Source: Erythrobacter insulae (GTDB lineage: Bacteria > Pseudomonadota > Alphaproteobacteria > Sphingomonadales > Sphingomonadaceae). Taken from it: a stretch of DNA of 64,000 nt. Under the pieces are notes generated by a model. It ran no database searches and was not told the origin of the DNA. It saw only the letters and a program-made list of their open reading frames with translations. The DNA lies in contig NZ_VHJK01000001.1 of NCBI RefSeq assembly GCF_007004095.1, positions 2,546,501 through 2,610,500 of the forward strand. Reading direction: 5' to 3'. The translations under genes and the position numbers were made by a program. Positions 48,030-52,171 of the stretch are shown one piece after another; positions within the stretch are counted from its first letter, which is position 1, and the number at the start of each line of letters is the position of its first letter.

Positions 48030-49237
48030 GTATGCAGATTGAAGAATCGCCCACCACAGATGGCGAAGTCATCTCGAATTACACGATCAACTTTGGCCCG
48101 CAGCACCCGGCCGCGCACGGCGTTTTGCGCATGGTAATGGAGCTTGACGGCGAAGTGATCGAACGGATCGATCCGCATATCGGCTTGCTGCACCGCGGCA
48201 CCGAAAAGCTGATCGAGCAGAAAACCTATCTTCAGGCGCTGCCTTATTTTGACCGGCTCGATTACTGTTCGCCGCTGTGTCAGGAGCATTCCTATGTGCT
48301 CGCAATTGAGAAGCTGCTGAACCTCGAAGTACCGGAGCGTGCGCAATATCTGCGTGTGCTGTTCGCCGAGCTGACCCGGATCTGCAATCACATGCTCAAT
48401 ATGGGTGCGCACGTGCTGGACGTGGGGGCGTTTACGCCGAACCTGTGGATCATGGATCTGCGCGAAGATTGCATGAACTTTTTTGAGCGGGCTTCGGGCG
48501 CGCGGATGCACTCTGCATGGTTCCGTCCCGGCGGTGTTCATCAGGATGTGCCGGAAAAGCTGCTGGTCGATATTGGCGACTGGCTCGATAACCGGTTTTT
48601 CCAGCTGTTCGACGACGCGATGAGCCTGGTGATCGACAACCGCATTTTCAAACAGCGTAACGTCGATATCGCCGTGGTCAGCCGCGACGATGCTGTCGCA
48701 TGGGGCTTTAGCGGCCCGATGATCCGCGCGGCGGGCATCCCGTGGGACCTGCGCAAATCACAGCCTTATGATGTTTATGACCGCATGGAATTTGATATTC
48801 CGGTGGGCACAAACTCGGATTGCTATGATCGCTTCATGGTCCGCGTTGCCGAGGTTCGCGAGAGCGCGAAGATTATCAAACAATGCATCGCGCAAATGCC
48901 CAAGGGCGAGATCGCTAGCGCCGATGGCAAAGTTTCTCCGCCGAAACGCGGCGAGATGAAACAGTCGATGGAAAGCCTGATCCACCACTTTAAGCTTTAC
49001 ACCGAAGGCTTTCACGTGCCCGAAGGCGAAGTTTACGTCGCGACCGAAAGCCCCAAGGGTGAATTCGGCGTCTATCTCGTCAGCGATGGTTCAAACAAGC
49101 CATACCGCTGCAAGATTCGTCCGACCGCGTTCAGCCACCTTCAGGCAATGGAGTTCATGAGCAAGGGCCACATGCTGCCCGACGCGACCGCCATTCTGGG
49201 CGCGATCGACGTGGTGTTTGGGGAGTGTGATCGATGA
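48026..49237 (+). CDS. nuoD: NADH-quinone oxidoreductase subunit D
   Basis: The 403-residue 49-kDa subunit, which forms the quinone pocket with NuoB. Conserved signatures are [42 protein letters not shown] and the C-terminal [15 protein letters not shown]. It starts in an ATGA overlap with nuoC, and its own stop overlaps the ATG of a small membrane-protein gene rather than nuoE. Confidence 0.97.
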
Positions 49238-49422
49238 ACAATAAGCGTTTGCTTGGTAGCGCGGCTCTGATTGCGGCCCTTGCTGCGGCGATCCGTTTGC
49301 TCCCTCAACTTGAGACCAACGATTTCGCCGCTGGAGTCTCAACCGGCCTTTTTATCGTGAGTTTCATCGCCATCATCTACGCTTTCGCATCAGCGCCTAG
49401 CGCCGGGGGGCAAAATGGCTGA
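49234..49422 (+). CDS. small two-helix membrane protein between nuoD and nuoE
   Basis: A 62-residue protein predicted as a hairpin of two helices (about residues 5-24 and 35-53) joined by a short polar loop containing LETND, with a Ser/Gly-rich tail. No family is recognised. It overlaps nuoD by four bases (ATGA) and nuoE by eight bases, so it is almost certainly translated with the nuo genes. It could be an accessory or assembly factor of complex I; that is inference from position only. Confidence 0.72.
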
Positions 49423-50083
49423 CCGGACACCCGCACCAGATACGCCTGAACTCCGCGCACGCTGGGGTCAATTCGCTTGGTCAAAAGCGAACAAGGCGAA
49501 GGCGGATTATCACATCGCCAAATACCCTGAAGGCCGCCAGAAATCGGCTGTGATGCCGCTGCTCGATCTGGCCCAACGTCAGGTTGGCGAAGAAACCGAT
49601 ACGCAGGGCTGGTTGCCCATGCCGGTTATCGAATATGTCGCCGATTATCTCGACATGCCCGCGATCCGCGTGCTCGAAGTCGCCACCTTCTATTTCATGT
49701 ACAACATGAAACCGGTCGGGAAATACCATGTGCAGGTCTGCGGCACGACGCCGTGCATGCTACGCGGCTCGGACGACATTATCAGCGCATGCAAATCGCG
49801 CGGGATGAAGATGGGCCATGTCTCCGAAGACGGTCTGTGGACCCTCACCGAAGTCGAATGCATGGGCAATTGCGCGACTGCGCCGATGGTCCAGATCAAC
49901 GATGACAATTACGAAGACCTGACGCCCGAACGCCTTGATGCGGTTCTCGACGCGCTGGCCAAGGGTGAGCAGCCCAAGACCGGCACACAGGAACCCGGCC
50001 GCCATACGTCTGAACCTGCTGGCGGAGCGACGACGCTCACCGAGATGGTTGGTACAAACCACGATTATCGGAGCGAATGGTAA
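49415..50083 (+). CDS. nuoE: NADH-quinone oxidoreductase subunit E
   Basis: The 222-residue 24-kDa subunit of the NADH-input module. It carries the [2Fe-2S] cluster N1a, with cysteines in QVCGTTPCMLRG and VECMGNCATAPM. An upstream helical region includes KSAVMPLLDLAQRQVG. The C-terminal 40 residues are a variable tail ending DYRSEW. The start lies inside the preceding small gene. The stop TAA shares a base with the ATG of a 30-residue ORF. Confidence 0.97.
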   Translation: MADRTPAPDTPELRARWGQFAWSKANKAKADYHIAKYPEGRQKSAVMPLLDLAQRQVGEETDTQGWLPMPVIEYVADYLDMPAIRVLEVATFYFMYNMKPVGKYHVQVCGTTPCMLRGSDDIISACKSRGMKMGHVSEDGLWTLTEVECMGNCATAPMVQINDDNYEDLTPERLDAVLDALAKGEQPKTGTQEPGRHTSEPAGGATTLTEMVGTNHDYRSEW

Positions 50084-50175
50084 TGGCTGTTTGGATCGCT
50101 CTCGGCTCTGTTGCGATTGCATTGATCGCTGTGATGGTCGCGTTGAACTCTACCGGGAAAGATGACCAGCTATGA
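50083..50175 (+). CDS. 30-residue single-helix ORF after nuoE
   Basis: A very short frame starting at ATG 50083 (TAATG overlap with the nuoE stop) and ending at TGA 50173-50175, where the next ATG overlaps (50172). It encodes one hydrophobic helix (about residues 3-21) and a polar tail ending GKDDQL. GGAG lies about ten bases upstream, inside nuoE. It may be a real microprotein or a coupling ORF. Confidence 0.45.
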   Translation: MAVWIALGSVAIALIAVMVALNSTGKDDQL

Positions 50176-50354
50176 ATGGCGGCGTTCTCGCATTGGCCAT
50201 CGCTGGCCTGTTTGGCTTTTTTGCAGGCGCATATCTCGCGGCAACAGGAGAGCGCGCCATTGGCATCATGCTCATGGGGATGGGCCTGCTCTTGCAGGTT
50301 TTGACCCTGCGCCAAATGAAACTGGCCAAGGAGAGGGACAATGATGCCCGCTGA
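50172..50354 (+). CDS. 60-residue two-helix membrane protein between nuoE and nuoF
   Basis: Two glycine/leucine-rich helices (about residues 4-22 and 29-46), linked by ATGERA, then a charged C-terminus (MKLAKERDNDAR). No family is recognised. The ATG at 50172 overlaps the preceding 30-residue frame by four bases, and the end overlaps the next small gene by 14 bases. The chain of overlaps supports translation. Confidence 0.62.
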   Translation: MNGGVLALAIAGLFGFFAGAYLAATGERAIGIMLMGMGLLLQVLTLRQMKLAKERDNDAR

Positions 50355-50505
50355 ATCCGCCAAAAAGCAAAAGGCAGGCGGCATCGCGTTCGTGGCAGCT
50401 GGCACGGTCTTTATGGCCACGATCAATGTCGCCTTGGGTGCCTCGTTTCTGGCGATTGGGGCCGCGCTCATCGCCAAAGGAAAGAAGGCTGAAGATGGCT
50501 CGTAA
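50341..50505 (+). CDS. 54-residue two-helix membrane protein between nuoE and nuoF
   Basis: A short frame with a strong ribosome binding site AAGGAGAGG ahead of ATG 50341 (or ATG 50344). A lysine-rich start (AKKQKAGG) precedes two hydrophobic segments (about 13-27 and 30-46) and a charged tail KGKKAEDGS. No family is recognised. It overlaps both neighbouring small genes. Confidence 0.6.
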   Translation: MMPAESAKKQKAGGIAFVAAGTVFMATINVALGASFLAIGAALIAKGKKAEDGS

Positions 50506-50683
50506 TTTGCTCGCAATCGCCGGTATCGCCTTCATCATTTTCGGCGCCTATTCGATGGCGACGGATGGTGAAATGCACAATTTCATATTTGTCACGGGAG
50601 GGATCGTGTTTCTCTTCCTCGCATATCAAAACCATCTCAAAAACAGCGTGATCTCCGCTGAGGATAGCAATGATGCTGGCTGA
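50495..50683 (+). CDS. 62-residue two-helix membrane protein before nuoF
   Basis: Two hydrophobic helices (about residues 4-20 and 29-45) separated by a polar loop TDGEMHN and followed by a charged tail [28 protein letters not shown] stretch precedes ATG 50495. It overlaps the upstream small gene by 11 bases and nuoF by 11-14 bases. No family is recognised. Confidence 0.65.
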
Positions 50684-51965
50684 TAAAGATCGTATTTTTA
50701 CAAATGTTTATGGCTTTCAGGACTGGGGTCTGAAAGCTGCGCAAGCGCGCGGCGATTGGGATAACACCAAGGCGCTGATTGAGCGCGGTAACGAAGCAAT
50801 CATCGAAGAGATGAAAGCATCGGGCCTGCGCGGACGGGGCGGGGCAGGTTTTCCCACCGGTCTCAAATGGTCATTCATGCCGAAAGAAAGCAAGGATGGC
50901 CGTCCGAGCTTCCTTGTTATCAATGCCGACGAATCCGAGCCGGGTTCATGCAAAGACCGCGAAATCATTCGTCACGACCCGCACAAGCTGGTCGAAGGCG
51001 CACTGATCGCTGGTTTCGCGATGCGCGCACGGGCTGCCTATATTTACATTCGCGGGGAATATATCCGCGAGGCAGAGACCCTGCAGAAAGCCATCGACGA
51101 AGCGTATGATGCCGGTTTCATTGGTAAGAATGCGAGCGGGACCGGATACGATTTTGACGTGTTCATGCACCGCGGTGCAGGCGCGTATATCTGCGGTGAA
51201 GAGACCGCGATGATCGAAAGCCTAGAGGGCAAAAAAGGGCAACCACGCCTCAAACCGCCATTTCCGGCGGGCGCTGGTTTGTATGGCTGCCCAACCACAG
51301 TCAACAATGTTGAAAGCATTGCGGTAGTGCCCACGATCCTGCGGCGCGGCGCATCGTGGTTCAGCAGCTTTGGCCGCGAAGGCAACCACGGCACCAAACT
51401 GTTCCAGATCAGCGGCCATGTCGAAAAGCCATGCGTCGTCGAAGAGGCGATGAGCATCCCATTCGAGGAGCTGATCGAGAAACATTGCGGCGGTATTCGC
51501 GGCGGTTGGGACAATCTGCTCGCGGTTATACCCGGCGGCTCTTCCGTGCCATTGGTGCCTGCCGAGCAAATCCGGCAAGCGCCCATGGATTTTGACGGGT
51601 TGAAAGAACTTGGCTCGGGTCTTGGCACGGCAGCGGTGATCGTGATGGACAAATCCACCGATATTGTCCGCGCCATCAGCCGCCTGTCCTATTTCTACAA
51701 ACACGAAAGCTGCGGCCAATGCACGCCGTGCCGTGAGGGTACAGGCTGGATGTGGCGCATGATGGAACGGCTGCGCACCGGCGATGCGGCAATCGAGGAA
51801 ATCGACATGTTGCACGAAGTGACCAAGCAGGTCGAAGGCCACACGATCTGCGCGCTCGGCGATGCAGCCGCGTGGCCGATCCAGGGCCTGATCCGCCATT
51901 TCCGCCCTGAGCTGGAAAAGCGGATCCACGAGCACAACGCACAGTTCGCGGAGGCAGCGGAATGA
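50673..51965 (+). CDS. nuoF: NADH-quinone oxidoreductase subunit F
   Basis: The 51-kDa NADH-binding subunit, about 430 residues. Motifs: NADH site [17 protein letters not shown] site [19 protein letters not shown], and the N3 [4Fe-4S] ligands in [16 protein letters not shown] plus a late cysteine in [12 protein letters not shown]. The start is ATG 50673 or the adjacent ATG 50670; GAGGA lies eight or five bases upstream. Its stop overlaps the ATG of another small membrane gene. Confidence 0.97.
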
Positions 51966-52171
51966 GCGCTTCCCGGCTTCAGATAGCGATTGCGTGGGTA
52001 ATGATGGCCGTTGGAGTGGTCGCTTTGTTCGATGGGTATGCAGGATATTCATCGGGCGATGAATCCATCATAGGCTGGCTAACTTTACCTGTGGCCATGT
52101 TCCTACTCGGTGGGTCCACGCTTCTGCGTTCACGCAAACAGATCAGTAACAGCGAGGCAAAAAATGCCTAA
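51962..52171 (+). CDS. 69-residue two-helix membrane protein between nuoF and nuoG
   Basis: Two hydrophobic segments (about residues 6-24 and 37-53) joined by an acidic, glycine/serine-rich loop (YSSGDES), then a basic and polar tail ([14 protein letters not shown]). It starts in an ATGA overlap with nuoF and overlaps the start of nuoG by eight bases. The layout is like the other five small frames of the operon. No family is recognised. Confidence 0.7.

Follow-up and report, generated by a model that had tools for sequence, protein, structure and literature searches.

A candidate exchangeable slot for coupled microprotein genes between nuoE and nuoF in Erythrobacter insulae and its relatives

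Introduction

Unidentified reading frames (URFs) occur in the nuo/nqo clusters of Paracoccus and Rhodobacter, and CydX and CcoM are small single-helix or hairpin subunits of respiratory oxidases. The locus described here, like the Paracoccus and Rhodobacter clusters, has extra frames between complex I genes, but it has them between nuoE and nuoF, two genes which are nearly always adjacent in the alphaproteobacterial genomes sampled outside the bacterial family concerned. Extra proteins accompanying alphaproteobacterial complex I are already known: the enzyme of Paracoccus denitrificans has as supernumerary subunits NDUFS4, NDUFS6 and NDUFA12 together with a PIMT (PMC11522691). The bc1 complex of Rhodobacter sphaeroides has a unique supernumerary subunit (PMC10041115), and termination-reinitiation at overlapping stop and start codons is a mode of translational coupling (PMC6728339). 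A literature search, which did not extend to the original Paracoccus URF papers, found no description of the frames, slot, hairpins or exchange reported below.

The window, i.e. the whole stretch of 64,000 nucleotides of Erythrobacter insulae DNA that was analysed, holds a nuoA-nuoM operon with four short frames, here called sA to sD, between nuoE and nuoF. The best explanation for the whole of our results, which we hold with moderate confidence, is that the nuoE-nuoF junction serves as a slot in which translationally coupled microprotein genes, nearly all coding for two-helix membrane hairpins, are exchanged.

Results

The features of the locus, by position in the window, are the following.

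49234..49422, + strand: small two-helix membrane ORF of 62 aa at the nuoD-nuoE junction, an insert like those in nuoE-nuoF
49415..50083, + strand: nuoE, upstream flank of the slot (PF01257, 3.8e-54; nuoE_fam TIGR01958 over cut-off)
50083..50175, + strand: sA, 30 aa, one predicted transmembrane helix, family A
50172..50354, + strand: sB, 60 aa, predicted two-helix membrane hairpin with K/R-rich tail, family B
50328..50336, + strand: AAGGAGAGG, Shine-Dalgarno-like site upstream of the sC start, seen in the sequence
50339..50354, + strand: CAATGATGCCCGCTGA, candidate scar copy of the nuoF start at the sB/sC overlap (direct repeat D12, 88% identity to 50668-50683)
50341..50505, + strand: sC, 54 aa, predicted two-helix membrane hairpin, family C
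50495..50683, + strand: sD, 62 aa, two hydrophobic stretches by hydropathy, family D
50668..50683, + strand: CAATGATGCTGGCTGA, sD stop overlapping the nuoF start, master copy of repeat D12
50670..51965, + strand: nuoF, downstream flank of the slot (nuoF_fam TIGR01959 over cut-off)
51962..52171, + strand: small two-helix membrane ORF of 69 aa at the nuoF-nuoG junction

The stop of nuoE at 50083 shares a TAATG with the start of sA, the frames then overlap by 4 bases (sA/sB), 14 bases (sB/sC) and 11 bases (sC/sD), and nuoF starts either at 50670, within a 14-base overlap with sD, or at 50673, within an 11-base one. The initial annotation had given the four frames, their coordinates and overlaps, the TAATG link and the overlap of 11-14 bases with nuoF exactly as we found them, and the strong ribosome binding site that it placed before 50341 is present as AAGGAGAGG ahead of sC. 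It had also ascribed to each frame one or two hydrophobic helices and a charged tail; the helices agree with our predictions (one in sA, modelled hairpins in sB and sC, two hydrophobic stretches in sD), and the tail was found in sB, where it is K/R-rich. Its remark that nuoE and nuoF are adjacent in well-known operons was likewise correct, the gap measuring 48 bases or less in 42 of the 44 genomes outside the bacterial family, drawn from other families of the order and class, in which both genes were in reach. At least one frame lies between the two genes in 160 of 171 loci of the family, as against 2 of these 44 alphaproteobacterial genomes. Among 381 junction proteins the 62-aa ORF at nuoD-nuoE (49234-49422) has no relative and the 69-aa ORF at nuoF-nuoG (51962-52171) has two.

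The coding status of such short frames was examined by a tiling score, which counts the bases left untiled or overlapping when a gap is covered with forward frames no shorter than 25 aa. The window gap scores 31 bases, which was equalled in 335 of 2000 dinucleotide shuffles (17%), and the overlap of frames in the window is by itself weak evidence for genes. Across 159 relatives with nuoE-nuoF gaps of 120-700 bases, 99% of the gaps score 40 or less, compared with 41% of the shuffled and 35% of the reverse-complemented gaps, so the tiling there is far beyond chance. We regard the frames as coding because of homology within families and constraint on codons.

This constraint is clearest for sB, which is, judging by substitutions, a gene under purifying selection. 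The pooled dN/dS of family B is 0.37 (881 pairs), the same alignments read in the two wrong frames giving 1.03 and 1.83, and close pairs lie at about 0.1-0.5, compared with 0.01-0.14 for nuoF. Family B was matched in 25 of 301 genomes of the order, nearly all of them from the genus of the window; sB is core to this genus, being near-universal there and absent past a few close genera. Its AlphaFold model, from an alignment of 29 sequences, is a two-helix hairpin (mean pLDDT 89, helices 3-24 and 28-58). The near-invariant residues of the family (G12, F16, G19, G26, G31, M35, G38, L39, Q42 and L46) are spaced by three and four, bringing small residues onto one face of each helix, which suggests packing inside the hairpin or with a partner, and the K/R enrichment at the end of helix 2 points to a cytoplasmic location for both termini. 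A fold search of sB against the PDB gave as best hits soluble helical hairpins at E = 2.9, as expected for so simple a fold.

The remaining families of the window are rarer. The sA family occurs in 8 of 114 genomes of the genus and the sC family in 4 of 114 (60% identical), in all cases in the nuoE-nuoF gap. Window sA differs from its nearest homologue at 12 of 52 nonsynonymous and 13 of 20 synonymous sites; with homologues few and divergent, pooled dN/dS is 0.41 for sA (4 pairs) and 0.54 for sC (9 pairs). The sC model, from 7 sequences, is again a two-helix hairpin (mean pLDDT 80, helices 3-26 and 30-53), and for both sB and sC membrane insertion is predicted from hydropathy and these models. 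Both sA and sC look conserved, although selection on them is weaker-supported than on sB. The sD family is present in 2-3 of the 114 genomes, with one clear homologue of sD (G388/L003, 41% identical) and one weak. The test for purifying selection put forward with the initial annotation thus came out positive for sB, weaker for sA and sC, and for sD could draw on one clear homologue, while its suggestion that the proteins may be clade-specific agrees with the distribution of all four. The widest slot family, K, occurs in 76 of the 301 order genomes, in 24 genera, and evolves fast (pooled dN/dS 0.74, close pairs about 0-0.9).

The slots of the window bacterium and its relatives hold from zero to four small genes, in combinations of families A, B, C, D and K and at least five more hairpin types, i.e. 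about ten types. Where matches had nuoE coordinates, all those of family K (67 of 67) and of family B (25 of 25) follow nuoE on its own strand at a distance of no more than 911 bases, and coordinate comparison places all family A, C and D matches likewise downstream of nuoE. A second genomic site for a slot family was found in no genome queried, each having one locus, and relatives of sB were found in neither plasmid nor phage collections; with a single locus and no plasmid or phage copies of sB, the slot families do not look like mobile or phage-borne genes.

Contents of the slot change rapidly. A nuoE+nuoF tree of 171 tips, built with FastTree and weak at many of its forks, requires at least 83 changes of slot content, 23 of K presence and 10 of B presence, where changes are counted irrespective of whether they are gains or losses. 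The close sisters L009 and L010 (nuoF dS 0.30) carry slots G1-B and G2-A-B, respectively: B is kept and G1 is exchanged for G2-A, with boundaries that coincide exactly with the stop of nuoE and the start of B. In some members of the genus (L014, L125) the slot is empty, so slot proteins are dispensable there.

It had been proposed that the frames might form a duplicated helix-hairpin family. Profile comparison by hhalign gave, from profiles built on 2-7 sequences each, a probability of 77% for sB-sD over 55 columns and of 90% for sA-sC, the latter over 26 columns and few sequences. The other pairs reached 42% (sA-sB), 9% (sB-sC), 2% (sC-sD) and 0.4% (sA-sD), where one reversed control reached 34%, and sB-sC and sC-sD scored no better than reversed controls. 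Duplication among the four frames may hold, at best, for some pairs, such as sB-sD and sA-sC. A single family for all four, as obtained by iterative HMM clustering that merged most hairpins, was set aside, since such clustering drifts on membrane composition and profiles with reversed controls back some pairs only. A true tandem pair of family B is present in L066/L159.

Possible traces of how inserts enter were found at the nuoD-nuoE junction. A copy of the nuoE start lies inside nuoD-nuoE gap inserts of L009 (66 bases, 94%), L036, L058, L070 and L002, and a copy of the nuoD end in the gaps of L002, L047 and L070 and, by eye, of L009. The order in scarred gaps is nuoD, ORF1, nuoE start copy, nuoD end copy, ORF2, nuoE. 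This layout would result if a second junction allele were added in tandem, and suggests that such additions sometimes occur. In the window, repeat D12 matches CAATGATGCCCGCTGA at the sB/sC overlap with CAATGATGCTGGCTGA at the sD/nuoF overlap in 14 of 16 bases, which could reflect an addition of C-D-nuoF downstream of A-B-nuoF. This is a weaker case than the nuoD-nuoE scars; since start and stop codons force part of the match, it counts as a lead rather than as proof.

Other junctions of the nuo operon carry inserts of different kinds. A family of secreted orphans of 200-250 aa with no Pfam match occupies the nuoF-nuoG gap in 32 of loci L001-L080 and also in L132-L171, with as many as four copies in tandem (L027, 2683 bases). 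A lipoprotein gene of 170-200 aa, again with no Pfam match, lies in the nuoC-nuoD gap of 22 Qipengyuania-like loci (e.g. L049, L055, L064). A SnoaL-like (NTF2-fold) gene precedes nuoE in the nuoD-nuoE gap of L036, L140, L144, L146, L153, L158 and L170, the insert of L036 beginning with a copy of the NuoE N-terminus, and DUF3291 proteins are also found among nuo junction inserts. In L157 two similar coiled-coil small proteins, one at nuoD-nuoE and one at nuoE-nuoF, replace the hairpins. Dispersed repeat elements (VIPAKAGTQ, HPELVSG, CEEPQATRQS and similar), kept translated, are present at junctions of L008, L070, L098, L141, L143, L155, L225 and L230. The atp operon of the same genus (L300-L319) has inserts over 100 bases at the GD junction in 9 of 20 cases and at the DC junction in 7 of 20; they measure 138-819 bases, and those between atpG and atpD are mostly lipoprotein-like orphans of 100-145 aa, not hairpins. 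The window's own genome is compact at the atp junctions. This bacterial family so tolerates or favours gene insertion at core operon junctions in general.

Discussion

The comparison of loci demonstrates, at the level of sequence, a tiled nuoE-nuoF gap, purifying selection on sB, families which occur only at this site and contents which change quickly between sister species. If the junction is an exchangeable slot, the chain would be translated through stop/start reinitiation and the hairpins thus made together with NuoE and NuoF. They would insert with both ends cytoplasmic, and the conserved residues G12, F16, G19 and G31, M35, G38, Q42 would form a packing stripe. Slot contents would pass between strains via homologous recombination in the conserved flanking genes, with occasional tandem integration that duplicates a short stretch from the end of a flanking gene, and A-B and C-D of the window may be two such tandem-integrated blocks. 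It is speculative to go further, but sB could be a small membrane protein in stable partnership with complex I or its assembly, with the others as interchangeable accessories.

A role in complex I for at least sB is possible, in our estimate somewhat short of probable. The exclusive site next to nuoE, the coupling and the genus-wide retention of sB favour it. The hairpins are encoded with complex I genes, the compared matches all lying directly downstream of nuoE, and homology to a known subunit or factor was not found, sA to sD having nothing over cut-off in Pfam or NCBIfam and families B and K matching nothing in a PDB sequence search. Since unrelated orphans occur at other nuo junctions and in the atp operon, operon position is weak evidence of function; the atp inserts mean that insertion is not special to complex I, which lowers confidence in a function there. 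A serious alternative, to which we give appreciable though less than even weight, is that the frames are lineage-specific orphans lodged in a strongly and constantly expressed operon, which gives them expression only, and selected for an envelope function unrelated to complex I. The secreted, lipoprotein, SnoaL-like and DUF3291 inserts at nuo junctions, the lipoprotein-like ones in the atp operon, the rapid turnover and the empty slots are all in accordance with it. However, orphans of this kind might be expected in several operons while the slot families are never found elsewhere, the slot holds almost only membrane hairpins where atp junctions hold lipoproteins, and sB is retained throughout the genus.

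The exchangeable slot also has a more specific version, which we consider rather unlikely: non-homologous hairpins would be born and kept at a dedicated site, spread only as junction alleles by nuoE/nuoF homologous recombination, tandem additions being marked by gene-end scars, and be interchangeable in their action on complex I, whose accessory composition would then differ between sister species. It is very improbable that the frames are inert spacers, inserted DNA being tolerated only as long as its translation carries ribosomes on to nuoF and avoids polarity. The near-perfect tiling of gaps by coupled frames and the repeat elements read through as frames would fit, but the constraint on amino acids, seen in sB as well as in close pairs from other families, the invariant residues and the membrane-hairpin design of nearly all frames argue against it. 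Chance frames in a GC-rich gap are scarcely credible, a reading for which the window gap alone, not being significantly tiled, could speak, but which is already refuted for sB and was dropped on the tiling of 159 loci, the homology within families and dN/dS with its frame controls.

Under the preferred reading, an exchangeable slot, the significance depends on what the hairpins do. Complex I operons are among the most conserved bacterial ones, yet their junctions here change from one sister species to the next. Should the hairpins act on complex I, the accessory composition of the enzyme would be evolving in real time among relatives of the mitochondrial ancestor, with many natural variants open to testing; if they do not, the slot would be a clean, countable model of orphan microprotein genes entering and leaving essential operons that stay undisturbed, with scars that show how.

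The closest relations are with the extra, lineage-limited proteins of alphaproteobacterial complex I. The supernumerary subunits of P. denitrificans are such proteins, as the slot hairpins seem to be, but they were identified on the enzyme itself, and mitochondrial homologues exist for three of them (PMC11522691), whereas the hairpins, which matched no PDB chain, are associated with complex I by gene position. With its TAATG, ATGA and similar overlaps throughout, the slot chain resembles the reinitiation mode of coupling, here as read from the sequence. Like CydX, CcoM and the bc1 subunit of R. sphaeroides, the slot hairpins are small, probably membrane-inserted proteins encoded with a respiratory complex; those three are demonstrated subunits, while the hairpins are known from their genes and are swapped between sister species.
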